Source: Gluconobacter frateurii (GTDB taxonomy: Bacteria > Pseudomonadota > Alphaproteobacteria > Acetobacterales > Acetobacteraceae). Taken from it: DNA of 64,000 nt. Every line of letters begins with the position of its first letter. Position 1 is the stretch's first letter. Location: the NCBI RefSeq assembly GCF_002723955.1, contig NZ_BEWN01000002.1:558001-622000 (forward strand). Direction: 5' to 3'. Made by a program: the position numbers and the translations under genes. This document shows positions 19,140 through 35,193 of the stretch, piece by piece. A model generated the notes under the pieces. The model saw only the letters and a program-made list of their open reading frames with translations. It had not been told where the DNA came from and made no database searches.

Positions 19140-19440
19140 CGGTGGATGCTAGACATGAGCAGATATTATTCGCCGCCACTGCCGGAATGTCCCCCAGCAC
19201 TTTCGCCAAAACCTGCATGGCTGCCTGACTCTGCCTCAGCCCCACCTTGGGCTGAATGGGAGTCATCCGTGCCGCCTGAAGAGCGAGGGGAATAAAAGCT
19301 ATGACCGCCCGAGCCTCCATGCAGGGAAGAAAAATACTGGCCGTCATAAGTTTGACCGATGACATAAGAAGGAAAAAAGATTTCGGTCACTTCAGAGACT
19401 TGTGGTTTTAGTTTTGAGATCAAATCAAACGATTGGTCCC
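19140..19440 (-). pseudogene. probable remnant of a ygiB-like (DUF1190) gene
   Basis: Just upstream of the decayed ygiC-like gene, on the same strand, a broken frame contains SYVIGQTYDGQYF, SFYSPRSSGG and a Ser/Gly/Gln-rich end with AGFGESA, reminiscent of the C-terminal half of YgiB (which has a MxGY..G block, a PLF/Y-S stretch and a GGFGES motif). In enterobacteria ygiB sits directly upstream of ygiC, the same order as here. No convincing N-terminus or signal peptide remains. The low-complexity tail makes the match weak, so this is a tentative call. Confidence 0.4.
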
Positions 19441-19510: not shown

Positions 19511-20212
19511 ATGCTGCGAGACATGGCAGTAGAGCCAGGTGACGGTTCGATGGAACAGAAAACAGTTCCATCACTCAGCATGATTGGAACGCGCGCGATG
19601 CTGTTTGAAGCGCCCGGGGATTTTACACTTGCTCAGCAGCGCCGCATTTGGGCGCTCACGGAAGCATCTCGCGAGCGGCATGACGTTGCTGAAGTGATTG
19701 TCGGTGTAACCAACCTGATGCTGGTTTTCTCGCAGGCGCCTGAAGATCCGGAAATCGTAGCGGATTGGCTTCTGAAAGCGTGGGACATGCTGCCGGAACG
19801 CCATATCAAGGGCAGGCTTTTTGAAATCGGTGTGCAGTACGGTGGTGAACTCGGGGAAGACCTGTTTCACGTAGCAGAACATGCGTGTCTGTCTCGGGAA
19901 GAGGTTATTTCTCTTCATCATGGAGCTGAATATACGGTCTGTGCTTTGGGAAGCGTTCCGGGTTTCGGCTATCTTCACGGATTGGACCCGCGGATTGCGA
20001 CGCCTCGAAAATCGGTACCGTCCCTGAACATGCTGGCCGGTACAGTTACCATTGGGGGAATGCAGGCCGGGATATCGGCTCTGACTGGGCCTAATGGATG
20101 GAATTCGATCGGCTTTACGGAAATATCGCTTTTTAATCCTGAAAGGAACTCTCCTTCCCTGTTCGCAATGGGGGACCGGATCAGGTTCTATCCGGAGAGT
20201 ATTGATCTGTGA
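19511..20212 (+). CDS. pxpB: PxpB/KipI-type subunit of 5-oxoprolinase-like carboxyltransferase
   Basis: A 233-residue protein of the KipI/AHS1 family, homologous to one half of the carboxyltransferase domain of urea carboxylase and to PxpB of bacterial 5-oxoprolinase. Typical runs are ALGSVPGFGYLHGLDPRIATPR (the usual form is GFxPGFxYL), SLNMLAGTVTIGGMQAGISAL and GPNGWNSIGFTEISLFNPERNSPSLFAMGDRIRF. ATG 19511 has GGAGAA before it; it gives a slightly longer N-terminus than usual, and ATG 19580 is an alternative. The stop overlaps the GTG start of pxpC. The partner PxpA-like gene is not here but at 31233-32000, next to biotin carboxylase genes, so substrate is open. Confidence 0.85.
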   Translation: MLRDMAVEPGDGSMEQKTVPSLSMIGTRAMLFEAPGDFTLAQQRRIWALTEASRERHDVAEVIVGVTNLMLVFSQAPEDPEIVADWLLKAWDMLPERHIKGRLFEIGVQYGGELGEDLFHVAEHACLSREEVISLHHGAEYTVCALGSVPGFGYLHGLDPRIATPRKSVPSLNMLAGTVTIGGMQAGISALTGPNGWNSIGFTEISLFNPERNSPSLFAMGDRIRFYPESIDL

Positions 20213-21201
20213 TTACAGTTCTTCAGACGCCGCCCCAGAATACCGTTCAGGATCTCGGGCGTTTCGGATATCGGGAATTAGGTGTCGGGACCGCCGGGGC
20301 GATGGATGGTGTTGCGCTTCAGGCTGGCAATATCCTTCTGGGAAATCAGCATGGTGCAGCTGCGCTGGAGATCCAGACTTTTCCCTTTGTCGTCAGGTTT
20401 GACGAAGCGTGTTTTGTTACCGTCACGGGTGGGGACGCAAAACTGGATTTGTCCGGGCAATCTTTTCTTCCCTGGACCTTGAAGCGCGTTGAAGCAGGGC
20501 AGACCCTATCGGTCGGTCGTCCTGCTGTTGGTGCGCGTGTGTATCTCTGCGTGCAAGGAGGGATCGACGTTCCTGCAATCCTTGGGTCACGTAGTACGCA
20601 GTTGCGGGGTGGTTTCGGGGGATTTGAGGGACGTTTCCTTGAGCTCGGGGATGTTCTGAAAACAGGCGACGGGCCAATGAGGCATTCGCTTTACGGCGCT
20701 TTGCCACCGGGCCAGAGGCTTGAGCAACTGGATCCAGAAAAAGGCATCATCGGGCTGAGAGCTATTCCGGCGACGGACTATTTCCGGTTTCCAGAACATG
20801 CCCGTCATCGTTTCTGGAATACGGACTGGAAAATTTCTCCACAGAGCAACCGCACTGGGTATCGCCTGAAGGGTGAAAAGGTTCTTCCGGACAAAGCGGT
20901 CGAACTCCGATCCTATGGTGTGGTTCCCGGTATTATACAGGTTCCTCCTTCAGGCGAGCCGATTGTGCAAATGGCCGATGCCAATACGGCTGGAGGCTAT
21001 CCCAGGATTGCATCGGTCATCGAGGCAGATCTCTGGAGGCTTGGTCAGGCACCGGTTGGAGCCAGAATAAGGTTTATCCCGTGTGATCACGCCGAGGGAA
21101 TTGCTGCGATGAGGGCTGTCACGTCGTATCTGTGTGATCTTATGCAGGTCACAGGTTTATATCAGGGAGAGCGCAACACGCTCTCGCGGGCTATTTCCTG
21201 A
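20209..21201 (+). CDS. pxpC: PxpC/KipA-type biotin-dependent carboxyltransferase family subunit
   Basis: A 330-residue AHS2/KipA protein, the second half of the carboxyltransferase fold. It opens with ITVLQTPPQNTVQDLGRFGYRELGVGTAGAMD, the family signature (QDLGRxGxxxxGVxxxGAMD), and contains GARVYLCVQGGIDVP, LGSRST and, near the end, VPPSGEPIVQMADANTAGGYPRIASV, corresponding to the conserved (P)xGxPIxLxxDxQTTGGYP block in which the more usual glutamine is here asparagine. GTG start at 20209 overlaps the pxpB stop (GTGA). PxpB and PxpC normally form a complex that hydrolyses 5-oxoproline with PxpA and ATP; in urea carboxylase the same fold transfers carboxyl from biotin to urea. Confidence 0.88.
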   Translation: MITVLQTPPQNTVQDLGRFGYRELGVGTAGAMDGVALQAGNILLGNQHGAAALEIQTFPFVVRFDEACFVTVTGGDAKLDLSGQSFLPWTLKRVEAGQTLSVGRPAVGARVYLCVQGGIDVPAILGSRSTQLRGGFGGFEGRFLELGDVLKTGDGPMRHSLYGALPPGQRLEQLDPEKGIIGLRAIPATDYFRFPEHARHRFWNTDWKISPQSNRTGYRLKGEKVLPDKAVELRSYGVVPGIIQVPPSGEPIVQMADANTAGGYPRIASVIEADLWRLGQAPVGARIRFIPCDHAEGIAAMRAVTSYLCDLMQVTGLYQGERNTLSRAIS

Positions 21202-21347: not shown

Positions 21348-22370
21348 ATGCTTGGGTGTGGAGATTATTCGGGAGTCTGGCCAGCCGTGCGGCATGATCT
21401 GAAACGAGGCGCACTTCTGCTTGCAACAGCAACGCTGTTCAGCGCCATGGTCAATGCTCTTCAAAAGCTGACGGGTGTTCGTCTTCCGGCGGTGGAAATC
21501 ACGTTTTTCCGGAATTTTTTCTCACTTCCGTTTGTGCTGTTAATCGCGAGCAGAAGAGGGATGGTTCTCAAAACCAGGCATTTTGGCGGCCATGTCATTC
21601 GGTCTGCCATTGGCCTCACCGGAATGATCATGGTTGTTGTGGCAGTAACCCGGCTTCCGCTCGCAGAACAGCAGATACTATCCTACACGCAGCCTCTGTT
21701 TCTGGTTCTGCTCTCCATTCCCTTGCTGAATGAGAAACCCTCTTTGACGCACTGTATTGCGGTGCTTATTGGTTTCTGTGGCGTATTGTTTGTTGCATTG
21801 GGGAAAAATACAGCATCAGCCGTTCCGGGCGTTATCATTCCCCATTGGGTGTATCTGCTTGCCATCGCACAAGGCGCGGTCGGCGCGTTGACGGCCATGC
21901 AGATCCGGCAGCTTTCCGCCACGGAATCCAGCACGACAATTGCGATCTGGCAAGCCATTCTCATGACGCTTGCCACCTTGGTGGCGCTGCCGTTCATTTG
22001 GGTTTCTCCCGGAATAACGGACCTGCTTTGCCTTATCGCCGTTGGGGCATTTGCCGGGATTGCCCAGATCCTCCAGACGGAAGCCTTTGCTTCGGCTCAG
22101 GTCTCGGCCGTTGGGCCTTTTTCGTACACTGGTTTGCTTTGGGCGGCTCTGATTGGCTGGCTTGGCTTTGGTGAACTGCCGGGTGTGACGCTGTTGCTCG
22201 GTGGATGTCTGATTATTGGTTCGGGCGTGTGGATGTTGCGCGCTGATCGCAACAAGCAAACCAGACAGCTTGCCACCCCTTCCAGTGCGGCAGCCTTGAG
22301 TAGCCAGGATGCGCCGCTCGAGGCCAGTGAGCTTACGAACGAAAATCTGGAAAGGACGCCTTCGACCTGA
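21348..22370 (+). CDS. DMT superfamily (EamA) transporter
   Basis: A roughly 340-residue membrane protein with ten predicted helices in two EamA repeats (first LLLATATLFSAMVNALQKL to VLFVALGK; second from VYLLAIAQGAVGALTAMQIRQL to GCLIIGSGVWMLR). Family members move amino acids, nucleobases or other small metabolites, usually outward but sometimes inward. No clear ribosome site precedes ATG 21348, so the start is uncertain. A polar 40-residue tail follows the last helix. The gene follows pxpBC and precedes an MFS gene on the same strand, which suggests transport of the substrate or product of the PxpBC-type enzyme. Confidence 0.85.
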   Translation: MLGCGDYSGVWPAVRHDLKRGALLLATATLFSAMVNALQKLTGVRLPAVEITFFRNFFSLPFVLLIASRRGMVLKTRHFGGHVIRSAIGLTGMIMVVVAVTRLPLAEQQILSYTQPLFLVLLSIPLLNEKPSLTHCIAVLIGFCGVLFVALGKNTASAVPGVIIPHWVYLLAIAQGAVGALTAMQIRQLSATESSTTIAIWQAILMTLATLVALPFIWVSPGITDLLCLIAVGAFAGIAQILQTEAFASAQVSAVGPFSYTGLLWAALIGWLGFGELPGVTLLLGGCLIIGSGVWMLRADRNKQTRQLATPSSAAALSSQDAPLEASELTNENLERTPST

Positions 22371-22453: not shown

Positions 22454-23767
22454 ATGTCTGAATTTGGAGTTGCAGGATCCGATGTTGAGGACGGCGCACC
22501 AGCCATGAAACTCTCCCGCATCAACGCGTCGTCACAGACGACATCGGCCGCTGCATATCGTTATGTCATGTTTGGATTCATCTTCCTCATGTACATGATC
22601 AGCTATGCAGATCGCGCTGCGTTATCCATCGCGTTACCCGCTTTGGGACAGGAATTTGGACTTGGGTCCGTACAGCTCGGCTGGATTTCATCGAGTTTTC
22701 TGTGGTCTTATTTTATTCTGAATTTACCCTCGTCCATTCTGCTCGATACTATCGGACCTCGCCTGACAGGGGTAATTGCGGTTGCGTTATGGTCGTCTGC
22801 CATGGTGTATGGCGGGACGGTTTCCACAATCCGTCAGTTCATTGCGTCCCGGGTATTCCTTGGAATTGGTGAAGCGCCCACTTTCGGTGTGGGCAGCAGT
22901 GTCGTGCGTGCGTGGGCTCTTCCCAAGGAGCGTGGATCGGTTCTCACGACACTTCTGACTGGCCAGCAGATCGGTCTGGCACTTGGCACGCTCGCAGGCG
23001 CGTTTCTTATCGTGCGTTTTGGATGGCGGTTCGAGTTTGCTGCTCTGGGGGCGATCGGTCTTCTCTGGGCGGCACTCTGGTGGTTTTTTTATAAAGACTC
23101 ACCTTATAAGCCAGTCGCTGAGAAAAAAGGGCCGATCACCAGAGCACAGTTCTTTTCCCTTTTCAGATCTCGTTCATTCTATGCAGTTGTCATTACGCAA
23201 TGTCTTGGTAATTACTTTAATTTCCTCGTAATGTCGTGGCTCCCGGTCTATTTCATCCATAAATTTCATCAGAATGTTTTTCAGTCCGGTGCGAAAAGCG
23301 CGGTCTGTTATGTGTCTGCTTCATTTGGTGCAATTCTTCTTGGGCGCTTTCTGGAAACCTCCGTTCTGCGGCGTAGAACCGAAATCCATGCACGTCGCAT
23401 CATCGTCTGTACCTGCATGGTGCTGAGTGCGAGCGTAGGGCTCTTACCCTTCATGACCTCAATGTCTCTGACGCTCGTGGTTATGGGTGTTTGTCTCGCG
23501 GGAATGATTGCAGGCAGTGGGGCCAATACCGCTCTTCTTGCGGATCTTCTGGATGATGGCAGCAAGATTGGTACCGTGACGGGTCTGACGCTGACCTTCA
23601 GTAATCTGTCCGGACTATTTGCGCCAATTGTCACGGGGTATATCGTGGCTGGAACTGGCAGTTTTGATATCGCCTGGTTTGGCTGCTCCGGAGCTCTCGT
23701 AATTGCTGGCCTGACGTCACTGTTTATGGTCAGCGGGCCTATTCGGACGCTCTTCAACAAGGCATGA
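22454..23767 (+). CDS. MFS transporter, anion:cation symporter (ACS) type
   Basis: A 437-residue twelve-helix permease. YRYVMFGFIFLMYMISYADRAALSIALPALGQEFGL is the typical first helix of ACS-family carriers (D-R/A-x-N/A pattern as in glucarate and hexuronate permeases), followed by QLGWISSSFLWSYFILNLPSSILLDTIGPR and the motif RVFLGIGEAPTFG. These carriers take up organic acids with protons. ATG 22454 has AAGGAG at the proper distance; the first 30 residues are polar and cytoplasmic. It is the last gene before a strong bidirectional terminator and probably imports a carboxylate used by the neighbouring enzymes. Confidence 0.88.
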   Translation: MSEFGVAGSDVEDGAPAMKLSRINASSQTTSAAAYRYVMFGFIFLMYMISYADRAALSIALPALGQEFGLGSVQLGWISSSFLWSYFILNLPSSILLDTIGPRLTGVIAVALWSSAMVYGGTVSTIRQFIASRVFLGIGEAPTFGVGSSVVRAWALPKERGSVLTTLLTGQQIGLALGTLAGAFLIVRFGWRFEFAALGAIGLLWAALWWFFYKDSPYKPVAEKKGPITRAQFFSLFRSRSFYAVVITQCLGNYFNFLVMSWLPVYFIHKFHQNVFQSGAKSAVCYVSASFGAILLGRFLETSVLRRRTEIHARRIIVCTCMVLSASVGLLPFMTSMSLTLVVMGVCLAGMIAGSGANTALLADLLDDGSKIGTVTGLTLTFSNLSGLFAPIVTGYIVAGTGSFDIAWFGCSGALVIAGLTSLFMVSGPIRTLFNKA

Positions 23768-23816: not shown

Positions 23817-25019
23817 TTAGCGTAGGCTTGCAACGAATTCCGCGATGCGGCGGCATCCTTCACGGAGCGTATCCGTGTCTGTCGCATAGGAAATGCGGAA
23901 GAACGGGCTGAGGCCATAAGCTGTACCCTGAACGGTTGCGACCTGTTTTTCCTCAAGCAGAGCCATGACAAAATCGGTGTCGGTATCAATCGTTCTGCCG
24001 CTGGTCGTCTGCTTGCCAATGCAGTCCGTAATATCTGGATAGACATAAAACGCGCCCCGAGGCGTATGACATTTGATGCCCGGAATGTCGTTTAGAAGAC
24101 CGACAACAAGGTCACGGCGCTTCTGGTATTCTGCTGCGCGGTCTTTCAGAAAATCCTGAGGACCTGTCAGCGCGGCTACGGCCGCAGCCTGTGCGATGGT
24201 ATTGATTCCGCTGGTAGCCTGACCCTGCATGTTGTTCATGGCTGCAACGAGGTTCCGTGGACCGCCACAATAGCCGACACGCCAGCCCGTCATGGCATAA
24301 CTCTTCGAGACACCATTAACCGTCAGGACACGGTCTTTCAGGCGGGGTTCGACTTCTGCCAAGGTGTAAAACTTGAAGTCATCATAAACAAGATGTTCGT
24401 AGATGTCGTCAGTCATGATCCACACCTGCGGGTGCTTCAGCATGATCCGGGCAATACTTTCCAGGTCTTCCTTGGAAGCGCATGTCCCGGTGGGGTTGTT
24501 GGGGAAGTTCAGGGCCAGCCACTTGGTTTTCGGGGTGATGGCCGCCTCTAGATCTTCAGGGGCCAGACGGAAGCCGTTTTCCGGACGACACGGAACCTGA
24601 ACGACCTTTGCGCCTCCCAGTCGGGCGAGGTCAGCATAGCTGATCCAGTAGGGGGTCGGGAGGATGACTTCGTCGCCCGGATTGCAAGTCGCCATCATGG
24701 CGTTGAAAATAATCTGCTTGGCACCATTTGCGACGAGAATTTCGTCCAGATCGTAATGCAGATTGTTTTCACGCAGGAATTTTTCCTGGATCGCTTTTCT
24801 CAGCGCGGGCTTGCCATTTTGGGGCGGATATTTGGTATCCCCGCTTCGGGCAGCTTCAATCGCCGCTTCAATGACATGGTCCGGGGTTGGAAAATCAGGT
24901 TCTCCGGAGGAAAGTCCTACGATTTTCAGTCCCTGCGATCGTAGTTCCGAAGCCTTGTCGGTCATTGCCGCTGAAGCGGAAACGGAGATTCCGTTCAGTC
25001 TGTCTGCGAAGCCGGGCAT
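23817..25019 (-). CDS. aatA: aspartate aminotransferase, class I PLP enzyme
   Basis: A 400-residue aminotransferase of the alpha-proteobacterial AatA subgroup. Motifs in order: SSGEPDFPTP (38-47), the PLP-binding NFPNNPTGT (171-179), DDIYEHLVYD (204-213) with the cofactor aspartate and tyrosine, and SKSYAMTGWRVGY with the Schiff-base Lys239. The C-terminal ...FFRISYATD contains the arginine that binds the substrate alpha-carboxylate. It exchanges amino groups between aspartate/2-oxoglutarate and oxaloacetate/glutamate; this subgroup often also accepts prephenate. The gene is divergent from the aspartase-like lyase gene, and a 19-bp inverted repeat lies between them. Cytosolic; start ATG at 25019. 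Confidence 0.93.
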   Translation of the reverse strand: MPGFADRLNGISVSASAAMTDKASELRSQGLKIVGLSSGEPDFPTPDHVIEAAIEAARSGDTKYPPQNGKPALRKAIQEKFLRENNLHYDLDEILVANGAKQIIFNAMMATCNPGDEVILPTPYWISYADLARLGGAKVVQVPCRPENGFRLAPEDLEAAITPKTKWLALNFPNNPTGTCASKEDLESIARIMLKHPQVWIMTDDIYEHLVYDDFKFYTLAEVEPRLKDRVLTVNGVSKSYAMTGWRVGYCGGPRNLVAAMNNMQGQATSGINTIAQAAAVAALTGPQDFLKDRAAEYQKRRDLVVGLLNDIPGIKCHTPRGAFYVYPDITDCIGKQTTSGRTIDTDTDFVMALLEEKQVATVQGTAYGLSPFFRISYATDTDTLREGCRRIAEFVASLR

Positions 25020-25138
25020 CCATTTTTACTCCAATGGGTGAATGGTCAAACAAACCTGGATTCCTGTTCTAGAGGCTTTGCGGAACAATTTGATACCAAC
25101 GAAAATCCTTTGCCCCTATCCAATAAAGATATGAGCGC

Positions 25139-25286: not shown

Positions 25287-26774
25287 ATGGATAATGCGGT
25301 GAATGACGGGCTGAAACGTCCGGTATATGACGATGCTACTGGCTCTCACGAAGATTTCCGCCCTGAAAAAGATCTTCTGGGCTTTCGGAAGATTCCGCAG
25401 AATGTCCGCTGGGGTATTCATACTGCGCGGGCTCAGGATAATTTTCCGATTAGTGGCATTCCCATTGGAGCCAGTCCGTTTCTTGTGAAGGGAATGGTTC
25501 TCGTCAAACAGGCCGCGGCGAGGACGAATTTCAGGCTTGGGACGCTGGAAACGTGGCGAGCGGACGCGATTGACAAGGCCTGTCAGAATATTCTGGATAA
25601 CCAAGTTCTTCATGAAGAATTTGTCGTTGACGTCATGCAGGGTGGGGCGGGGACCTCCACCAATATGAATGTCAACGAGGTCATAGCAAATGTGGCGCTT
25701 GATCTATTGGGGAAAGCGCACGGTGATTACACCGTTTTGCATCCGAACGACCACGTGAACATGATGCAGTCTACAAATGATTCCTATCCAACCGGATTAC
25801 GTGTCGCTGTTCTTCTGGCGCTGGAACCGCTGTTGGAGACACTCATGGATCTGGCGAAAAGCCTGCGAGCTAAAAGTGCTGAATTCAGGGATGTTCTGAA
25901 GCTCGGACGGACGCAGTTGCGGGATGCTGTACCCATGACGCTCGGACAGGAATTCGGGGCCTTCAGTACCATGATACAGTCCGAAATTGCCAACCTGAAA
26001 AATGTGTCTGGGCAGTTGCTGGCGATCAATCTGGGAGGCACGGCAATCGGGACAGGTATTACGGCACATCCGGACTTCGGGGCATTCGCAACGCAGGAGT
26101 TGCGGCGATTAACCGGCTATGAATTTGAAAGAGCTCCGGATCTGGTGGAGGCGACGTCTGATGTTGGTGCTTTTGTCAGCTTCTCGGGGGCGCTTAAAAG
26201 GCTATCCCTGAAACTCTCGAAAATAGCGGGAGATCTTCGTCTTCTGTCCAGCGGCCCATGGGCGGGATTTGGAGAGATCTCTCTTCCCGCTGTGCAGGCT
26301 GGGTCTTCCATTATGCCTGGGAAGGTGAATCCGGTTATTCCGGAGGCAATTAACCAGGTGGCCTATCTTGTCTGTGGGCATGATTTGACCGTCACTATGT
26401 GTGCGGAGGGGGGTCAGCTTCAGTTGAATCCATTCGAGCCCATGATTGCTCATTGTCTTTTCTCCTCAATGCACTGCCTCACCAATGCTGTGACGGTTCT
26501 GACCACGCGGTGTGTGGATGGCATTGAAGCTGAGTGGGAGCGTTGCCGATCCTATATCGAAGGAAGTGCCAGTATCATTACGGCGTTGGTACCTCGGCTC
26601 GGGTACGAAGTGTGCTCCAGGCTCGCGAAGCGAGCGTTGGTTGAGAAAAGAAAAATCCTCGATCTTCTTCTGGAAGAGAGTCTGCTTCCCTCCGAGGAAC
26701 TGGCGGAACTGCTACGTCCGGAGCTTCTGACAGGTGCGGCTTCGGGTGTCTCGGTGGAAAGACCGCAGTCATAG
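25287..26774 (+). CDS. aspA: aspartate ammonia-lyase (aspartase/fumarase superfamily)
   Basis: Converts aspartate to fumarate and ammonia. The 495-residue protein carries the superfamily signature GSSIMPGKVNPVIPE near residue 340, and the other conserved runs AGTSTNMNVNEVIAN, VNMMQSTNDSYPTG and LGRTQLRDAVPMTLGQEF. The residues TNMNVNEVIAN and QSTND favour aspartase or class II fumarase; the N-terminal VRWGIHTARAQDNFPISG reads more like aspartase (E. coli has YGVHTLRAIENFYIS). The first 30 residues are polar and possibly extra. Together with the divergent aspartate aminotransferase it would channel aspartate into the TCA pool. A start further downstream is possible, since no strong ribosome site is seen. 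Confidence 0.88.
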   Translation: MDNAVNDGLKRPVYDDATGSHEDFRPEKDLLGFRKIPQNVRWGIHTARAQDNFPISGIPIGASPFLVKGMVLVKQAAARTNFRLGTLETWRADAIDKACQNILDNQVLHEEFVVDVMQGGAGTSTNMNVNEVIANVALDLLGKAHGDYTVLHPNDHVNMMQSTNDSYPTGLRVAVLLALEPLLETLMDLAKSLRAKSAEFRDVLKLGRTQLRDAVPMTLGQEFGAFSTMIQSEIANLKNVSGQLLAINLGGTAIGTGITAHPDFGAFATQELRRLTGYEFERAPDLVEATSDVGAFVSFSGALKRLSLKLSKIAGDLRLLSSGPWAGFGEISLPAVQAGSSIMPGKVNPVIPEAINQVAYLVCGHDLTVTMCAEGGQLQLNPFEPMIAHCLFSSMHCLTNAVTVLTTRCVDGIEAEWERCRSYIEGSASIITALVPRLGYEVCSRLAKRALVEKRKILDLLLEESLLPSEELAELLRPELLTGAASGVSVERPQS

Positions 26775-27017: not shown

Positions 27018-29585
27018 ATGAAAAAGCGCTTTCATATGACTGAGAAAAAACTGCTGCTGTGTACGACCCTGTGCCTGTTCGGTTTTTCTACCAGTGAAGC
27101 AGTCTCAGCAACGACGACGGCTACAACCAAACATACGGACAAGGCAGTCAAAGCCGCCAAGCCTGCCGCTCCTTCGAAGAAGTCGGCAATTCACGATCTT
27201 GAAGACCATCGGAGCGAACAGATCAGTGTGACGGTAGGGCGTCGTGTGGGCCGATCGGTTCTATCCCCATCTACTCCGGCACACAGTACCACGCAGGTCA
27301 CGGTGGTCAGCGGCAGCCAACTTGCGGCAACTGGTCAGAGCAACCTGATGCAGGCACTCTCACAGCTTTCTCCATCCGTTACATCTCCACCAATGCCGGG
27401 CGGCGGTAATAACGGCTTTACACAAACCATGCAGCTTCGTGGGCTGTCTGCTGATCAGACGCTGATCCTCGTCAACGGTCACAGACGGCATATTGGTGCG
27501 AACTTCAATGCTCTTGTTGGACCGCAATGGGGATCTGAACCGGCTGATATTGCTCTTATTCCCATCAGCGCAGTTGATCATGTGGAAGTCATCACCGAAG
27601 GTGCAACGGCGCTGTATGGTCAGGATGCGATGGCAGGTGCCGTCAACATCGTTCTGAAATCAGCGACTCACGGCGGCTCCATCAATTTCAAGAACAGTGG
27701 CTTCTATGCTGGAGACGGGCAGAATATTGACGGTTCCGCCAATCTTGCTTTCGCCTTGGGAAAACAGGGTGGTTATCTGGATCTCGCAGCGCAGGTCATG
27801 CATCAGCTTCCGGCGTCCCGGAACGGTGACTACATCAACCCAAGTCGCTATCCGAACGATTTCTACTATGCGTTGCCCAACGGGAGCGTCGATCCCCGTT
27901 CAAATCGAAGCCGTGATGTTCAGAGATCGAACTCGCTTTCCAAGCGCACGATGGAAACGCTGTCAGCCAATATGAGTGTTCCGTTGACGGAACATATTGA
28001 CCTCTATTCAACATCGACGTACGCGCACCGCAAAGTTTCAGTGGGGCAGACCTATCGTTCAGCAGCTGATGATCTGACGGTTACTTCCCTCTGGCCGGAC
28101 GGGATGCAGCCTTATTATGACATGACTGAAAACGACTTTGAGGTCGATAATGGCTTCAAAGGCCATACATTCGGCTTTTCCTGGGACACTTATGTCAATT
28201 ACGGTAAAGACCTTCAGTCTTATGACATGCGTGATACGGACAATGCGTCTTACGGGGATGCCAGCAAAACCAAGTTCTATACGGGTTCAGCTACTGCAAG
28301 CCAGTTGACGGCAGGTTTCCGGGCATCCCGTAATTTCGATGTTGGTTTCCTGCCTAAGCCTGTCAATCTGGAGTTCGGAGCAGAATATCGCCGCGATACT
28401 TTCACTCTTGGTGCAGGTGAATATGAGTCCTATGCAAGTGGTGGAGTGCCGATTCTCACGGGGCCAGATGCAGGAATGACGGCGACACCCGGTGCAGCGA
28501 CCCATGCCGGTAATCCCGCTTCTGTGGCGGGGAAATACACCCGGGATGTTTATGACGGACACGTCAATCTGGATTTCTTCGTGACCCGGAAATGGGAATG
28601 GACCCTTGGCGGTCGGACGGTAGCCTATCACAACTATCCTGTTGTCACGACTGGCGCCATCGGAACGCGTTACAACTTCAACAAGAAGTGGGCGATCCGC
28701 GCCAATATCAACACCGGCTACCGTCCGCCAACGCTTGGCCAGACCTATTATTACTACAGCTCTCCAAGCGCCACCTACTCCACTTTGTCGCTGCCAAATA
28801 ACAGTCCCGCAGCCCGCGCCTTGGGGGCAGGGCCTCTCAAGGGTGAATATTCCCGCAGCTACAGCATCGGTGTCGATGCCACTCCGATTACCAACATGCA
28901 CCTCACCGGTAATCTGTATTACATCGCCATCAATGATCGGCTGGCCAGCACGCCAACCCTTGGCGGAACTTATGTTTCAAACACGCTGGCGGCGTATAAT
29001 ATGGGCAATGCAACTTACGCATCCTACTATGCAAACCCGGTCAACACGAATACCTGGGGCGGTGATCTGGCTCTGGATTACACATGGCGTACACAAGGAT
29101 ACGGGACATTCCGTTTTGGAATCGGTATCAACTTTTCCGACAATGAAATCCGTAGCTACAACAAGACCCCTGCCGTTCTTAAAGCCAATAACATTCCCTA
29201 CTTCAATTCCTATGCGGTGGCGGAACTGCTTCATGCGTCACCCAAGAACCGTGAAAATCTGACCGTCAACTGGACAAAGGGCAAATGGTCCGCGAAGGTT
29301 GAGGAGTTGCGTTATGGTTCTTCTGTCTTCATTGCCGCTCCCAGCCTGCCTACCAACCTGTGGACGGTGCAGAATCCGGCGATCATCACGAATCTTGAAG
29401 TCGGTTATAAGATCGTTCCCTGGTGGAATGTCACAATCGGTGCCAACAATGTGGGTAATAAGTATCCGACCCGTGTGAAAGCGGCGTCCACTGCTTCCAG
29501 CTTCAATATGTACAAATATGCCGCATTCTCTCCGTACGGATATTTCGGTGGTATGTACTATGTCTCAACGTCCATGAATTTCTGA
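27018..29585 (+). CDS. TonB-dependent outer-membrane receptor
   Basis: An 855-residue receptor. Residues 1-31 are a signal peptide ending near SEAVSA; a linker rich in Thr, Lys and Ala follows. The plug begins around VTVVSGSQLAATGQSNLMQALSQLSPSV and contains the conserved MQLRGLSADQTLILVNGHRRH and VDHVEVITEGATALYGQDAMAGAVNIVLKS. The rest is a beta-barrel rich in aromatic strands, ending in YVSTSMNF with the terminal phenylalanine needed for outer-membrane insertion. The plug type is that of substrate receptors annotated for vitamins, sugars or unknown ligands rather than a clear siderophore receptor. An SDR gene begins 27 bp downstream, so ligand uptake and an oxidoreductase are probably co-expressed. 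Confidence 0.92.
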   Translation: MKKRFHMTEKKLLLCTTLCLFGFSTSEAVSATTTATTKHTDKAVKAAKPAAPSKKSAIHDLEDHRSEQISVTVGRRVGRSVLSPSTPAHSTTQVTVVSGSQLAATGQSNLMQALSQLSPSVTSPPMPGGGNNGFTQTMQLRGLSADQTLILVNGHRRHIGANFNALVGPQWGSEPADIALIPISAVDHVEVITEGATALYGQDAMAGAVNIVLKSATHGGSINFKNSGFYAGDGQNIDGSANLAFALGKQGGYLDLAAQVMHQLPASRNGDYINPSRYPNDFYYALPNGSVDPRSNRSRDVQRSNSLSKRTMETLSANMSVPLTEHIDLYSTSTYAHRKVSVGQTYRSAADDLTVTSLWPDGMQPYYDMTENDFEVDNGFKGHTFGFSWDTYVNYGKDLQSYDMRDTDNASYGDASKTKFYTGSATASQLTAGFRASRNFDVGFLPKPVNLEFGAEYRRDTFTLGAGEYESYASGGVPILTGPDAGMTATPGAATHAGNPASVAGKYTRDVYDGHVNLDFFVTRKWEWTLGGRTVAYHNYPVVTTGAIGTRYNFNKKWAIRANINTGYRPPTLGQTYYYYSSPSATYSTLSLPNNSPAARALGAGPLKGEYSRSYSIGVDATPITNMHLTGNLYYIAINDRLASTPTLGGTYVSNTLAAYNMGNATYASYYANPVNTNTWGGDLALDYTWRTQGYGTFRFGIGINFSDNEIRSYNKTPAVLKANNIPYFNSYAVAELLHASPKNRENLTVNWTKGKWSAKVEELRYGSSVFIAAPSLPTNLWTVQNPAIITNLEVGYKIVPWWNVTIGANNVGNKYPTRVKAASTASSFNMYKYAAFSPYGYFGGMYYVSTSMNF

Positions 29586-30315: not shown

Positions 30316-31227
30316 TTAGGTGGCTGATGCACCGTGCAGGTTCATTGTCTCTTCCCTCAGGATCTCGATAACGGCGGTCGCTGCGACAGAGTGCGTGGCT
30401 TCGTCCTTCAGGCACAGGGAAATCGGCGCAATGATCTCTGGTTCCGTCAAGGCGCGGACCGTAACAGGAAATACGCGTTGCAATTCGAGCGCCACGGGAA
30501 AGGGCAGAATCGTGATGCCTAATCCTTCGGCGAGGGCTTCGCCCAGTGTCGAAAGGGATTCAAGCTCCGCAATGATGTGTGGGCTGAAACCACTTTCGCG
30601 GCATGCCTTTTCAATGCGAGCGCGGGGATAGGTTGAACGGACGGGGAGGAACATCTCTCTGTCCGCGAGTGCGGCCAGAGGAATGACGTCATTCCCTACA
30701 GGGAAAAATTCTTCCAGCCCGACAACACACCACCGTTCTGTCGCTATTGTCTCAAAAGACAGCCCTCTGATTGGACCGACATCGTAAAGAACGGCGACGT
30801 GCATCGCGTCTTTCATGATGAGTTCTGTCAGAGCAGGGCCAAAATGTTCCCTGATATGCAGGATGACATTGGGATATTTTTCCCGAACCTTTCTCAGGAG
30901 AGGAAGGGCGAGGGACGTTGCGCTACTGGACGGAGCCAGCCCGACGCAGACCTCACCTGAAACAACAAGTTCCGGTTGAGAAACGCTCCGGCGGGCCTCG
31001 GCCTCCTGACGGAGCATGATGTGGGCGTGATGATACAAGGCGCGTCCGGCGGGGGTGAGGCTAACGCCTCGCGGACTGCGGATAAGAAGCTTCTGCCGAA
31101 ACTCCCCCTCCAGTGCGACCATCTGCTGGCTTAAGGCCGGTTGCGCGATGTGCAGCAGACTGGCCGCACGCGTCACGCTTCCAACGTCCACAACCTTGAT
31201 GAATGCCGCGAGACGCCTTGTGTCCAT
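30316..31227 (-). CDS. LysR family regulator of the biotin-carboxylase/PxpA operon
   Basis: A 303-residue LysR protein with the N-terminal HTH (RRLAAFIKVVDVGSVTRAASLLHIAQPALSQQMVALE, nearly canonical for the nac/cbl-like branch) and the effector domain starting at SGEVCVGLAPSS. It begins 5 bp after the PxpA-like stop and is thus the last gene of the six-gene leftward operon, an arrangement that puts the regulator under the control of its own target promoter. The palindrome CATAA-N7-TTATG at 35177-35193 is a possible site. The inducer is probably the substrate or product of the operon enzymes. Confidence 0.9.
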   Translation of the reverse strand: MDTRRLAAFIKVVDVGSVTRAASLLHIAQPALSQQMVALEGEFRQKLLIRSPRGVSLTPAGRALYHHAHIMLRQEAEARRSVSQPELVVSGEVCVGLAPSSSATSLALPLLRKVREKYPNVILHIREHFGPALTELIMKDAMHVAVLYDVGPIRGLSFETIATERWCVVGLEEFFPVGNDVIPLAALADREMFLPVRSTYPRARIEKACRESGFSPHIIAELESLSTLGEALAEGLGITILPFPVALELQRVFPVTVRALTEPEIIAPISLCLKDEATHSVAATAVIEILREETMNLHGASAT

Positions 31228-31232
31228 GGAGA

Positions 31233-32000
31233 TCAGCCTAGCAGAACATGGGCAGGAACAATTTCACCGCCGCCACTTTCGATCTCTGACCTTATGACAC
31301 GGGCCAGATCTACGGAACCAGGTGTATCGCTGTGAACGAGAATGGAGGAAGCTTCGATCCGGCGGGTCTCGCCCTCGATCGTCTTGACGGTGCCACTATC
31401 CAGAAATTGACGAACCCTGTCCCGCAGTTGCGCATGATCGTGGATGACCGCGCCTTCGCGTCCGCGTGGAACCAGATTGCCTTTCAAATCATAAGCCCGG
31501 TCGGCCAGAAAGATTGGCAGAACCCGCAGACCTGCTTTTTCTGCTGCGCGGCCAACAGGTTGATCCGGCATGGAGAAGAAGATCAGGTTACGATCCATGG
31601 TGGCAATGACTTTGGCAAGCCGCTCGGCGAGGGCTTCGTCTGCATTGATCGCATTTCCAAAAGCCGCGTGGTACGACACATGCGTAACGCGGGCACCGTA
31701 TCGGGACGCAACGCCCTGCAGGGCTCCGATCTGGTAGGCCAGAATGGCTTCCATTTCCTTGGGCGAAAGCTGCATGAAGCGGCGGCCAAAACCGCTCAGG
31801 TCCGGAAAGCCGGGGTGCGCCCCAATGCCGACACCTCGCTCAATGGCCATGCGGACGGTGTGGTCCATGATCGATGGGTCGCCGGCATGAAAGCCGCATG
31901 CAATGTTTGCGGAGGAAATGACGTCCAGAAGACCGTCGTCATCGGCCACTTTCCACCGGCCATATCCTTCACCGAGGTCCGAGTTCAGGTCGATCTTCAT
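31233..32000 (-). CDS. PxpA/LamB-YcsF family protein, divergent form
   Basis: A 255-residue TIM-barrel-like protein of the LamB/YcsF family, the PxpA component of 5-oxoprolinase. It keeps DLNSDLGEGYG (4-14), SANIACGFHAGDP (30-42), GAHPGFPDLSGFGRR (60-74) and FLADRAYDLKGNLVPRGREGAVI. It departs from the usual family at residues 108-117, which read VSYHAAFGNA where HVKPHGALYN-like sequence is expected, so the Lys-Pro pair is lost, and at ILVHSDTP for the usual CVHGDTP. AGGAGG precedes the ATG. The gene is in an operon with biotin carboxylase subunits while PxpB/PxpC are 10 kb away. The changed motif suggests a substrate other than 5-oxoproline, or altered activity. Confidence 0.85.
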   Translation of the reverse strand: MKIDLNSDLGEGYGRWKVADDDGLLDVISSANIACGFHAGDPSIMDHTVRMAIERGVGIGAHPGFPDLSGFGRRFMQLSPKEMEAILAYQIGALQGVASRYGARVTHVSYHAAFGNAINADEALAERLAKVIATMDRNLIFFSMPDQPVGRAAEKAGLRVLPIFLADRAYDLKGNLVPRGREGAVIHDHAQLRDRVRQFLDSGTVKTIEGETRRIEASSILVHSDTPGSVDLARVIRSEIESGGGEIVPAHVLLG

Positions 32001-32035
32001 TCATTCCTCCTGGGTGTGTTTCTGGCGCGTTTTGT

Positions 32036-32488
32036 TCAGTCGTGCGTAGGGGTGAGTGTAAGAATGGTTGTCCCATAGCCGGTCAGATCGCCGTTCTGTG
32101 TCAGAACCTCTGCTACCGTTCCGGCGCAGGGTGCCGTAACGCTGATCTGCATGGGGCCAATCGAGAGTAGAGCCACGGTGTCGCCAGCGTTTATGGAACT
32201 ACCTACAGGGGCCAGTGGCTCATTCTGCATAGGGCGCAACAGGGACAGAACACCAAAATAGGGGCTTTTTACAGCGACAGTGTCATCTTGTTTGGGAGCT
32301 GTCTCAGGAATTTGGACCGCTGCGGGCTCGGATGCGGTGATAGGGCTCAGAACGATTTTGAAGGACCGCTCTTCAGCCGTTACTTCCAGACTATCCAGGC
32401 CCGCATTTCGGAGCCAACCGATGATCTGCGCTGTTTCATCCGCAGTCGGGATCTGGAACAAAGCGAAGTCATTTTGCAAAGATGTCAT
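32036..32488 (-). CDS. biotin carboxyl carrier-like protein lacking the biotinylated lysine
   Basis: A 150-residue protein built like AccB: a helical N-terminal segment, a Pro/Ala-rich linker (residues 50-70) and a C-terminal beta-barrel starting KSPYFGVLSL and ending GTTILTLTP. In a working carrier the hairpin turn has E-x-M-K followed by an acidic stretch; here residues 109-116 are SIGPMQIS and the loop contains no lysine at all. The fold is otherwise preserved, including SINAGDTVALL and APCAGTVAEV. The start overlaps the biotin carboxylase stop (ATGA). It can hardly carry biotin, so it may be a structural or regulatory partner of the true carrier at 33849. Confidence 0.85.
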   Translation of the reverse strand: MTSLQNDFALFQIPTADETAQIIGWLRNAGLDSLEVTAEERSFKIVLSPITASEPAAVQIPETAPKQDDTVAVKSPYFGVLSLLRPMQNEPLAPVGSSINAGDTVALLSIGPMQISVTAPCAGTVAEVLTQNGDLTGYGTTILTLTPTHD

Positions 32489-33852
32489 GGTTCTTCGCGT
32501 ATCCTGAGCCAGTTCTCCAGGAAGTGGATGTCGACGCTGCCCTCACGAAAGGCAGGGTCGGCAACAATATCCTGATGAAGGGAAAGGTTTGTCGTCACGC
32601 CCTCGACGCGCATTTCGGCAAGAGCAATTTCCAGACGGGCAAGAGCTTCTTCACGCGTTTCACCATGCACAATGATCTTCCCGATCATTGAGTCATAGTG
32701 AGGGGGAATGGTGTAGCCAGCTGTGACATGCGTATCGATGCGTACACCTGGGCCGCCGGGGAGATCCCATCTTGAAATACAGCCTGGAGAGGGGCGGAAT
32801 GTCTTTGGGTCTTCCGCATTGATGCGACATTCAAACGCATGTCCGCGTGTCACGATGTCCTGCTGACGCAAATTCAGCTTTGCGCCGTGTGCGATACGAA
32901 GCTGCTCGCGGACAATGTCGATACCGGTCGTTTCTTCGGTAATCGGATGCTCTACCTGAACGCGCGTGTTCATTTCGATAAAGGCAAAGAGACCGTCTTC
33001 GTACAGGAACTCGAACGTCCCAGCGCCGCGATAGCCGATCCGATGACAGGCTTCGGCGCAGAGCGTTCCGATGCGGGCGATGTCTTCTGCCGGTATGTCA
33101 CAGGGGGGCGCTTCTTCCAGAACTTTCTGATGACGTCGCTGGAGGGAACAATCCCGGGCGCCAAGCCATAATGCTGTTCCGTGCGTATCGCAGAGCACCT
33201 GGATCTCGATATGCCGCGGCTTTTGCATGAATTTTTCGAGGTAAAGGGTTCCGTTCCCGAAAGCCTGCCGCGCCTCATGCGCTGTCAGGCTGACGGCTTC
33301 GGCCAGTTCTTCCGTAGACCAGACAACGCGCATGCCTTTGCCACCACCGCCGCCGGTCGCTTTCACAATGACTGGGTAGCCTACGGAATCCGCAATGGTT
33401 GCAACGTCTTCAATTCTCTCGGGGAGGGAGCCGTCAGATCCGGGAACGCACGGTACGCCAGCTTCCAGCATGGCCTGCTTGGCGGAAATCTTGTCACCCA
33501 TAATACGGATGGATTGCGCTGTCGGGCCTACGAAAATCAGCCCGACAGCTTCCACAGCTTCTGCAAAATCTGCATTCTCGGATAAAAAGCCGTAGCCGGG
33601 ATGAATGGCGGTCGCGCCCGTCACCCGCGCGGCTAGCAGAAGCCGTTGCGGATCAAGGTAGCTTTTTGCTGCTGATGCCGGTCCAATGCAAAGCGCGATA
33701 TCCGCTTCCTGAACATGGCGGCTCTCACGGTCAGCTTCTGAAAAGACCGCAACCGTTTCAAGTTTCAGGGCTCGGCACGCACGCTGGATGCGCAGGGCGA
33801 TTTCACCGCGATTGGCAATCAGAACGCGGCCTGTGATCTGGGGCGCGGTCAT
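32485..33852 (-). CDS. biotin carboxylase subunit (AccC family)
   Basis: A 455-residue ATP-grasp enzyme that carboxylates protein-bound biotin with bicarbonate and ATP. Motifs: RVLIANRGEIALRI at the N-terminus, the ATP loop KATGGGGGKGMRVV, EKFMQKPRHIEIQVLCD and FIEMNTRVQVEHPITE with the catalytic residues. Length and order are as in AccC. Because it is embedded between two carrier-protein genes and next to a PxpA-like gene, this is probably a paralogue dedicated to a special carboxylase rather than the housekeeping acetyl-CoA carboxylase subunit, though the sequence alone cannot exclude the latter. ATG 33852 overlaps the carrier stop by 4 bp. Confidence 0.92.
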   Translation of the reverse strand: MTAPQITGRVLIANRGEIALRIQRACRALKLETVAVFSEADRESRHVQEADIALCIGPASAAKSYLDPQRLLLAARVTGATAIHPGYGFLSENADFAEAVEAVGLIFVGPTAQSIRIMGDKISAKQAMLEAGVPCVPGSDGSLPERIEDVATIADSVGYPVIVKATGGGGGKGMRVVWSTEELAEAVSLTAHEARQAFGNGTLYLEKFMQKPRHIEIQVLCDTHGTALWLGARDCSLQRRHQKVLEEAPPCDIPAEDIARIGTLCAEACHRIGYRGAGTFEFLYEDGLFAFIEMNTRVQVEHPITEETTGIDIVREQLRIAHGAKLNLRQQDIVTRGHAFECRINAEDPKTFRPSPGCISRWDLPGGPGVRIDTHVTAGYTIPPHYDSMIGKIIVHGETREEALARLEIALAEMRVEGVTTNLSLHQDIVADPAFREGSVDIHFLENWLRIREEP

Positions 33853-34301
33853 TGAAGGCGCAGGAGAGGGGCGCCAGCCTCCACTTCCTCTCCATCTGAA
33901 GCGAGCAATGCCATGACCGTGCCTGAGGCGTCTGCCTCAATGGCACTAAAGACTTTCATTGATTCCATGAGGCCGACCTGCTGCCCTTTTTCTACTTTGT
34001 CTCCCACAGTGACAAAAGGGGGAGACCCAGGGGCTGGGCGTTGATGGAAAATGCCGTATGCCGGTGCGGAAACGATATGTTCGGACGGACGGACCTCTTC
34101 CACAATCGGGGAAGAGGGGGCTGGTATGGCCTGAATGGCCGTCGGGCTCTGGTCCTGTGGAAGGGGAGCGGACGGCACGGCAACGGCTGGACTGCGGGAA
34201 AGGCGGATGTAAATTTCGCCCTCTCTCAACTCCATCTCCGTAACGCCGGAGCGGCCGGCAAGCTCAATCGCCTCCCGGATACGGTCCATCCATGACATCA
34301 T
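33849..34301 (-). CDS. biotin carboxyl carrier protein (AccB-like)
   Basis: A 150-residue carrier with N-terminal helices (MDRIREAIELAGRSGVTEMELREG), a Pro/Ala linker and a biotinyl barrel beginning VSAPAYGIFHQRPAPGSPPFVTVGDKVEKGQQVGLMESMKV. Lys116 in ESMKV is the expected biotin attachment site. The thumb-like insertion of E. coli AccB is present (PGSPPFVTVGD region). The ATG at 34301 overlaps the SDR stop (ATGATG/TGA) and the stop overlaps the biotin carboxylase start, so translation is coupled on both sides. This is the only lysine-bearing carrier of the operon and should be the substrate of the neighbouring biotin carboxylase. Confidence 0.9.
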   Translation of the reverse strand: MMSWMDRIREAIELAGRSGVTEMELREGEIYIRLSRSPAVAVPSAPLPQDQSPTAIQAIPAPSSPIVEEVRPSEHIVSAPAYGIFHQRPAPGSPPFVTVGDKVEKGQQVGLMESMKVFSAIEADASGTVMALLASDGEEVEAGAPLLRLQ

Positions 34302-35053
34302 TCTTTTGGTGTCGTTCTTTTGGCGAAGTTCAGACCGCCCACGACCTGTGTGGTGGGCAGGACCTCCATGAAGCTGACATTCATGCGCTGCGGTGCCGTA
34401 ACGGCGAAGGTAACGGAATTTGCGATGTCGATCGGGAGCAGGGAGTCGTATTCATCAAAGAACCGACGCTTGGCTTCTTCCATATTGCCGATCAAACGAC
34501 CGAAGACTTCCGTTTCCACTCGGGCCGGGGAAATCTCGGTGACGCGGATATGAGATCCGTACAGGTCACAGCGGAGCTGTTGGGACAGGGAATGCACGCC
34601 TGCCTTGGTCGCGTGATAGACGGTATTGCCCCCCGCAAACGCATAATGGCCAGCGATGGAGCTGATGTTGACGATATGGCCGCGATCGCGCTCGACCATG
34701 CCCGGTACAATCAGGTGCGTGAGTTGTAGAACTGCACGCAGATTGACGTCTACCAGACTGTCAATGTCTTCACGGGTTGTTTTTGCGATATTGCCACTCC
34801 GGGACTGGCCTGCGTTGTTCACGAGAACGTCGAAAGGAATTTCCTGCGTGAGCTGCTTAAGCGCATCGTAGTCCTCAACACTGATTGCATGAGGAATACA
34901 TCCCGTTTTCTCGGCCAGTTCAGCAAGGCGCCCTGCATCGCGTGCGATCGCATGAACTTCCAGGCCGCTTTCCCGAAGACGTGCGACAATAGAGGCTCCG
35001 ATGCCGGAGGAGGCTCCTGTGACAAGTGCTGTACGGTAAGGAAATTCACTCAT
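34298..35053 (-). CDS. SDR family oxidoreductase (YdfG-like), first gene of the carboxylase operon
   Basis: A 251-residue short-chain dehydrogenase. The coenzyme loop is TGASSGIGASI (9-19), followed by NNAGQSRSGNI, catalytic serine in VNISSIAGHYAF and the YxxxK pair in YHATKAGV. RVTEISPARVETEVFGR resembles the serine/3-hydroxy-acid dehydrogenase YdfG group, which oxidises beta-hydroxy acids with NADP. It leads the six-gene leftward operon, so it probably acts on a compound of the same pathway. Stop and next start overlap by 4 bp. About 420 bp of non-coding DNA lies upstream. Confidence 0.9.
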   Translation of the reverse strand: MSEFPYRTALVTGASSGIGASIVARLRESGLEVHAIARDAGRLAELAEKTGCIPHAISVEDYDALKQLTQEIPFDVLVNNAGQSRSGNIAKTTREDIDSLVDVNLRAVLQLTHLIVPGMVERDRGHIVNISSIAGHYAFAGGNTVYHATKAGVHSLSQQLRCDLYGSHIRVTEISPARVETEVFGRLIGNMEEAKRRFFDEYDSLLPIDIANSVTFAVTAPQRMNVSFMEVLPTTQVVGGLNFAKRTTPKE

Positions 35054-35176
35054 GATTGGCTGCCATCTGTTGCGGAGGAAGAGCTAGCTGCTCTTTCATT
35101 CAAGCGTATCAATGTGTCTCGAAAAACATGATAGTTCCGTAACAAAACCCGATCCAACAGAACTTCGGTCTTGGGT

Positions 35177-35193
35177 CATAAGAATATGTTATG
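35177..35193. promoter_or_regulatory. inverted repeat upstream of the carboxylase operon
   Basis: CATAA and TTATG, 7 bp apart, form a 17-bp symmetric site 124 bp upstream of the first gene of the leftward operon. Size and AT-rich character suit a LysR-type operator, and the operon encodes a LysR protein; the pairing is inferred. Confidence 0.4.

Follow-up and report, generated by a model that had tools for sequence, protein, structure and literature searches.

We analysed a window of 64,000 nucleotides from Gluconobacter frateurii (contig NZ_BEWN01000002.1, positions 558,001 to 622,000, forward strand), in which a leftward six-gene operon encodes a short-chain dehydrogenase/reductase (SDR), a biotin carboxylase (BC), two relatives of the biotin carboxyl carrier protein (BCCP1 and BCCP2), the LamB/YcsF hydrolase PxpA and a LysR regulator, while the carboxyltransferase (CT) genes pxpB and pxpC form a separate rightward pair (Table 1). 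An original prediction, made from the sequence alone, had joined these two gene groups into a split, biotin-dependent amide or lactam carboxylase with its hydrolase. Its six leftward genes, linked by 4-bp overlaps or short gaps, are all present as described, and Pfam and NCBIfam names agree with their labels; pxpB and pxpC are likewise present at 19511-21201. The 4-bp overlaps are SDR/BCCP1, BCCP1/BC, BC/BCCP2 and PxpB/PxpC, and gaps of 35 bp and 5 bp separate BCCP2 from PxpA and PxpA from LysR. The best NCBIfam match of the SDR, PRK10538 (YdfG), reached 161 bits, under its cut-off of 411, and BCCP1 scored 105 bits against TIGR00531, under the cut-off of 115. Both carriers have 150 residues; the biotinyl motif ESMK occurs in BCCP1 only, and SIGP stands at the same site of BCCP2. 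The true start codon of PxpB may lie about 20 codons downstream of the annotated one, as its relatives align from about residue 20. The PxpC structure model has a predicted local distance difference test score (pLDDT) of 92, with E. coli YbgJK (5dud) as the best fold match. An NCBIfam search of the TonB-dependent receptor gave no match.

Table 1. Genes and predicted promoter elements of the two gene groups and the region between them, in window coordinates. MFS, major facilitator superfamily; DMT, drug/metabolite transporter.
Feature	Position	Strand	Support
SDR oxidoreductase, YdfG-like, first gene of BC operon	34298..35053	-	PF00106 5e-44
BCCP1, biotinylatable carrier with ESMK motif	33849..34301	-	PF00364 2.2e-15
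BC	32485..33852	-	TIGR00514 646 bits, over cut-off 626.5
BCCP2, BCCP paralogue, Pro at biotinyl site	32036..32488	-	PF00364 2e-8
PxpA (LamB/YcsF) hydrolase, Ser replacing common Lys in V-K-x-H-G	31233..32000	-	PF03746 7e-88
LysR regulator, NAC-like	30316..31227	-	PRK11233 NAC 285 bits, under cut-off 309
PxpB, CT subdomain C/D	19511..20212	+	PF02682 3e-57; TIGR00370 170 over cut-off 145.6
PxpC, CT subdomain A/B	20209..21201	+	PF02626 2e-84
EamA/DMT transporter of module	21348..22370	+	PF00892; 63-73% identity across 17 head-to-head clusters
MFS transporter of module	22454..23767	+	PF07690; found in 17 head-to-head clusters
Aspartate aminotransferase-like enzyme (AspC)	23817..25019	-	PRK06107 522 bits, under cut-off 617
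Aspartate ammonia-lyase family enzyme (AspA)	25287..26774	+	PRK12273 663 over cut-off 510; TIGR00839 572 under 681
TonB-dependent receptor (name from the original prediction's sequence reading)	27018..29585	+	homologue in 15/17 head-to-head loci
Conserved predicted promoter element, upstream of SDR-BC operon	35175..35192	-	rank 1 in scan; reverse strand rank 2
Weaker element copy, upstream of pxpB, orientation as in relatives	19343..19360	-	rank 3 of ~128,000
Possible element copy between aspC and aspA, suggestive only	25118..25135	+	rank 4 in scan

We compared genome neighbourhoods across Acetobacteraceae, a check that the original prediction had proposed, and found that both halves lie side by side in relatives. 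Among the 150 genomes of this order that were searched, 41 have PxpA (54 PxpA rows), and 40 loci with large flanks were picked by hand from these rows and from BCCP2 rows. In 17 of the 40, a fraction that is no population frequency, pxpB and the SDR gene stand head to head (L071-L075, L077-L081, L083-L088 and L091), with MFS-DMT-PxpA-PxpC-PxpB running in one direction and SDR-BCCP1-BC-BCCP2 in the opposite one; pxpB and the SDR gene are 3 kb apart in L071, and BCCP2 of L091 was recognised separately. Within these 17 stretches, homologues were found of the SDR and AspC (17/17 each), of LysR and the TonB receptor (15/17 each) and of AspA (13/17). The window proteins share 66-79% (PxpB), 53-63% (PxpC), 60-70% (PxpA), 70-78% (BC) and 75-82% (SDR) identity with those of the head-to-head relatives. 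The layout of the window is rearranged, with pxpA inside the BC operon and the halves about 9 kb apart, and this split into separated halves is peculiar to the window's genome among the genomes read. A second cluster type, L092 (G041:C4:250000-269000), in which no BC was seen in 19 kb, contains an MFS transporter, a TonB receptor (78% identical to that of the window), a second SDR (76%), a LysR (59%), PxpA (70%), a DMT transporter and PxpC-PxpB. Since its TonB receptor, second SDR and LysR resemble those of the window, the window appears to be a mosaic of the head-to-head and L092 types. A further type, PxpBCA-BCCP1-BC, was mostly viewed with 1.5-kb flanks. PxpC of L078, and both PxpA and PxpC of L108, each appear as two adjoining pieces, as after a frameshift or stop.

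The two halves also share a predicted promoter element. The 14 head-to-head intergenic regions that were aligned (all but L071, L078 and L091) contain an element resembling ATCGGATAATCTTATGGC in two copies. A matrix made from 24 of the 28 element sites in relatives, none of them from the window, was used to scan about 128,000 window positions; the evidence for a predicted copy is strong at 35175(-), upstream of the SDR-BC operon, and suggestive at 19343(-), upstream of pxpB, and at 25118(+). The score of the 19343(-) copy is attained by 0.9% of 311-bp stretches. A plain consensus search of the window gave 7 matches against 5.3 expected, no excess over chance, and a longer pattern of the element matched exactly at 35164(-), with 3 matches against 0.24 expected. 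In summary, there is strong support for a single module made up of PxpB/PxpC and the BC operon, and the pairing first proposed from the sequence is backed by the head-to-head synteny together with the promoter element. A chance neighbourhood was rejected on the synteny in relatives, the gene company beyond the family and the promoter element.

The genome of the window (G000, 3.31 Mb, 10 contigs) was searched for other members of these families. The operon would have been read as housekeeping acetyl-CoA carboxylase had it held the sole accBC pair of the genome; this is not so, because a second BC (C5:221955-222272), to which the window BC is 58% identical, and an adjoining carrier with an EAMK motif (C5:223280-223498) exist on contig C5. 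Identity does not part the Pxp-type BC (about 60%) from the housekeeping BC (58%). The searches found a single copy of PxpA and, besides PxpC, no CT_A_B protein; two matches to the carboxyltransferase family PF01039 lie on contigs C1 and C6, neither adjoining the cluster; from the matched part of the domain they are probably AccA and AccD. Beyond PxpBC and these two matches no carboxyltransferase was found, in searches that did not include the pyruvate-carboxylase type. Housekeeping acetyl-CoA carboxylase was rejected for the operon on the second BC and carrier and on the location of the PF01039 matches, AccA/AccD being nowhere adjacent to the cluster. The same genome encodes a hydantoinase-B-family protein (G000:C3:324862-326376), a possible separate lactam hydrolase, so the module may be dispensable for plain 5-oxoproline.

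The original prediction had called BCCP2 a second carrier, which does not hold in the usual sense of the word, as the biotinyl lysine is missing from all 50 BCCP2-type (class-2) proteins and is present at the E-x-M-K site of all 67 class-1 carriers; the profile scores used to set the classes could bias them towards the lysine split, and a motif-free tree and the pattern within each locus served as checks. In a tree of 141 carriers, a single branch parts all 58 class-2 sequences from the rest (support 0.98; 0.93 after removal of the four motif columns). The pattern of one carrier of each kind repeats in 9/9 annotated plasmid loci, where the class-2 lysine is again absent (0/9), and the lysine is present in six AccB-like carriers of other genomes and in the C5 carrier. 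Most class-2 proteins have G-[YF]-G 25 to 27 residues past the biotinyl site, where most of class 1 have E-A-G. One genome occurs twice among the 50 (L072 and L110), and identical rows were dropped from the tree and from the motif and column counts; alignment A2 took 38 of the 50. Searching with BCCP2 gave some match in 132 of 150 genomes. The 22 best, among them that of the window, all have a PxpA match no more than about 8 kb away; eight lower matches were also read, of which seven have the lysine and the eighth, L066, adds another class-2 protein from a PxpA locus. The ratio of nonsynonymous to synonymous substitution rates between the window and G051, a single pair, is 0.14 (NG86) or 0.22 (YN00) for BCCP2, 0.20 (NG86) for BCCP1 and 0.04 to 0.05 for BC, so on this one pair BCCP2 appears to be under purifying selection. 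The BCCP2 model (pLDDT 88; predicted template modelling score, pTM, 0.56) best matches the E. coli BCCP domain over 75 columns, with a root-mean-square deviation of 1.2 A. A conserved clade of biotin-less carriers is thus a new element of the module. The records of the nine plasmid loci name the protein 'hypothetical protein' (six), 'biotin/lipoyl-containing protein' (two) or 'biotin carboxyl carrier protein subunit' (one).

We then looked at the distribution beyond the family, using a PxpA alignment to scan named genomes. Because only the best 80 of at least 590 matches were taken and the query derived from Acetobacteraceae, the fractions are not population frequencies. BC was found in 35 of these 80 loci and a BCCP2-type carrier in 21, in several gene orders; the other 45 have no BC in the available stretch, some stretches being short. 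Loci of the BCCP2 type occur in Komagataeibacter, Acetobacter, Sinorhizobium, Phyllobacterium, Rhizobium, Agrobacterium and Martelella, and further in Paraburkholderia, Trinickia, Variovorax, Pseudomonas, Maritimibacter and metagenome bins. The nine annotated plasmid loci, picked by hand among the 40 BC matches listed of 249 records, all combine one carrier with the lysine, one without it, BC and pxpABC; they also contain an SDR (9/9), an aminotransferase (8/9), a regulator named nac (5/9) and an amino-acid ABC (ATP-binding cassette) transporter (5/9). The earlier statement that such genes combine elsewhere therefore stands, as in other families too the module is accompanied by an aminotransferase, an SDR and, in many cases, a NAC-like LysR. 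A gene for RraA or 4-carboxy-4-hydroxy-2-oxoadipate aldolase lies nearby in three of the nine (L203, L206 and L210, on plasmids of Burkholderia pyrrocinia, Terrarubrum and Bradyrhizobium). In a separate BC-linked class, PxpC and BC have long open frames, as if fused, and BCCP2 is absent. Two PxpA genes each were found in six genomes (G055, G108, G121, G137, G141 and G147), and in five of them, all but G055, each copy lies in its own type of BC-linked cluster, suggesting that their substrates differ. Four PxpA genes each were found in G041 and G105.

We next examined the CT and hydrolase subunits for residues that go with BC. PxpA sequences were grouped by gene order after inspection of alignment A1, 'no BC' meaning that none was seen in the available stretch; the window's subgroup comprises the BCCP2 loci minus seven of the TonB receptor-MFS-PxpBCA-BCCP1-BC-BCCP2 type (L076, L103-L107 and L109), and PxpA of L099 was excluded from A1 for an in-frame stop. 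The lysine of the V-K-x-H-G motif occurs in none of 42 sequences of the window's subgroup, which have Ser, Asn, Gly or Tyr instead, and is kept in 39 of 49 from loci without BC. PxpA, PxpB and PxpC of the subgroup each differ from their BC-less counterparts at columns where a residue that is almost invariant in one group seldom occurs in the other. Alignments A3 and A4 took 24 of 108 PxpB and 18 of 111 PxpC sequences, respectively. The loss of the PxpA lysine may fit a changed activation step.

Taken together, we favour the reading, with a probability of roughly 0.58, that the products of the two operons make up a single split enzyme, a biotin-dependent carboxylase plus hydrolase, that opens an amide or lactam, with BCCP2 assisting assembly. 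BC, with ATP and bicarbonate, would carboxylate the biotin on BCCP1, and PxpB/PxpC, which have the urea-carboxylase CT fold, would move this carboxyl onto the nitrogen of an amino-acid-like amide or lactam, within what may be a physical complex. PxpA would then hydrolyse the activated amide, and the N-carboxy product would shed CO2, so that ATP would drive the ring opening. As BCCP2 cannot carry biotin, it would be an assembly or docking subunit. Transamination by AspC and ammonia release by AspA could follow under the control of the NAC-like LysR, and these steps would suit glutamate or a relative as the product; that the SDR and the RraA-type aldolase hint at a hydroxylated or substituted product is speculation. 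Of the enzyme first predicted from the sequence, the single module and a BC distinct from the housekeeping one have held, but one of its two presumed carriers is not biotinylatable.

Several observations weigh against this reading. The PxpA lysine is kept in 8/8 sequences of the TonB receptor-MFS-PxpBCA-BCCP1-BC-BCCP2 type and in 22/22 of the group with BC and without BCCP2, and since these other BC-linked groups keep it, its loss may mark the substrate instead. In Kluyveromyces lactis urea carboxylase, Lys1605 is described, in the part of the report available, as the likely CT general base (PMC5770610); it aligns with PxpB Arg166, which is invariant in the 24 A3 sequences, BC-linked and BC-less, although a Lys follows directly in the window protein and an alignment error of one residue would alter this result. 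This column, being Arg in both groups, gives no residue that separates BC-linked from BC-less PxpB, so it lends no support. Hence, the kinship with urea carboxylase invoked in the original prediction stands for the CT modules and their fold, but its chemistry is not directly transferable to PxpBC. G051 has kept the BC operon and gave no PxpC or PxpB match; as its LysR is truncated beside a transposase-like gene pair (L070 4000-7800), a recent loss of PxpBC is likely but unproven. Four of the 50 BCCP2 loci have no BC above the score used, two with about 10 kb on either side (L116 and L177) and two at contig ends (L120 and L123). PDB entry 9yx5 counts on both sides. In favour of a link, it brings together AccA3 (BC-BCCP), two chains of the propionyl-CoA carboxylase beta type and a PxpB/PxpC-family pair, which is named "allophanate hydrolase subunits" and scores almost the same as M. 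smegmatis 3mml; its sister entries 9yx1 and 9yx2 are titled as a long-chain acyl-CoA carboxylase complex from M. smegmatis. This differs from the window in that carboxylase beta-type chains are in the same entry, and because they are acyl-CoA carboxyltransferase chains, it speaks for proximity and not for coupling; 9yx5 was absent among the 50 Foldseek matches listed.

The operons might instead encode an ordinary ATP-dependent 5-oxoprolinase PxpABC beside BC and carrier genes with a separate co-regulated job, for example the supply of carboxybiotin to another enzyme. PxpABC is reported to be the 5-oxoprolinase that Corynebacterium glutamicum requires for growth on 5-oxoproline, and the available part of that report mentions no role of BC or biotin (PMC13274462); this, the 45 of 80 PxpA loci without BC in stretches that are partly short and the G051 operon without PxpBC would all be expected. 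However, the genes for BC and both carriers are intermingled with pxpABC in several differing orders, which suggests one complex, a further CT that could use the carboxybiotin was not found apart from the two distant PF01039 matches (the pyruvate-carboxylase type lay outside the search), and the group-specific columns set all three Pxp proteins of the window's subgroup apart from the BC-less ones. We consider this explanation unlikely, while giving it some weight.

It is less probable still that PxpBC uses carboxybiotin to carboxylate a carbon, acid or alcohol, with PxpA and the SDR processing the product and no amide being opened. The SDR that recurs in 17/17 head-to-head and 9/9 annotated plasmid loci, the aldolase gene near three of the latter and the Arg at the position of the urea-CT lysine would agree with such a reaction, but the CT is related in sequence and fold to a carboxylase of amide nitrogen, and ring opening is the task of PxpA within 5-oxoprolinase, according to the part of the source available (PMC13274462). 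A second acetyl-CoA carboxylase isozyme, in which BC and BCCP1 would partner the housekeeping AccA/AccD, is very improbable: BC does exceed the accC cut-off, and the two PF01039 matches on C1 and C6 could supply the partners, yet no such CT gene adjoins the cluster, its neighbours are pxpABC, another BC and carrier exist elsewhere in the genome, and BCCP1 is under the BCCP cut-off.

If the favoured reading of one enzyme is true, the common annotation is wrong and a new biotin-dependent route of amide opening exists, as the module genes of rhizobia, burkholderias and others are recorded as fatty-acid accC, biotin carrier, 5-oxoprolinase and 'hypothetical protein'. A wider proposal, which we hold only tentatively and think doubtful as it stands, is a widespread biotin-dependent branch of PxpABC that would activate an amino-acid lactam for opening by placing CO2 from carboxybiotin, and not phosphate, on the amide nitrogen, with a non-biotinylatable BCCP as an essential structural subunit and bacterial counterpart of the plant BADC proteins. 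Given the recurring aminotransferase and SDR genes and the RraA-type aldolase genes of some loci, a possible substrate class under this proposal is 4-substituted 5-oxoproline or a related plant-derived amide. In a literature search with incomplete journal coverage, none of the titles and abstract beginnings among the matches listed described a biotin-dependent PxpABC or a lysine-less BCCP in it.

Elsewhere in the window, the protein at 35475-37160 has an N-terminal half rich in repeats, along with a CYLAGTMIRMADGSEHAVEDITVGDEI stretch that we tentatively liken to a Hint domain.

Among known systems, the PxpABC 5-oxoprolinase (E. coli YbgJKL, B. subtilis, C. glutamicum), of which Niehaus 2017 is reportedly the founding paper, has the same three families and related solved structures. 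PxpA, PxpB and PxpC are all present in the window (TIGR00370 and PRK05406.1-3 over cut-off), with PxpC at 291 bits against the 500 of its equivalog model NF045499, and the PxpA V-K-x-H-G lysine, which is common in BC-less PxpA, is absent from the window's subgroup. Unlike that enzyme, the window adds BC, a biotin carrier and a lysine-less carrier, together with other transporters and a NAC-like LysR. The usual scheme, as given in the part of the source available, assumes that PxpBC phosphorylates 5-oxoproline, which PxpA then opens (PMC13274462).

Urea carboxylase/urea amidolyase (K. lactis 3va7 and 5i8i; bacterial TIGR02712) shares BC, CT_A_B, CT_C_D and the carrier, all of which the window has as separate chains scoring 19 to 496 bits each, under the one-chain cut-off of 1303.85, which was passed in 3 of 58 genomes, G000 not among them. 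The window differs in its split chains, its extra lysine-less carrier, PxpA rather than allophanate hydrolase as the hydrolase, and Arg166 in place of the CT general-base lysine. The plant BADC proteins are BCCP relatives without the biotinylation motif that, in the available part of one report, are said to aid BC-BCCP assembly, an inhibitory role having also been proposed (PMC11926652). Like them, BCCP2 has the BCCP fold, has no biotinyl lysine and has been retained alongside a functional BCCP and a BC; unlike it, BADC belongs to the plastid acetyl-CoA carboxylase, its 'glue' role is reported in plants only, and the two are likened here by description. If the favoured reading holds, this conserved biotin-less carrier would offer a bacterial test case for why plants retain BADC proteins.

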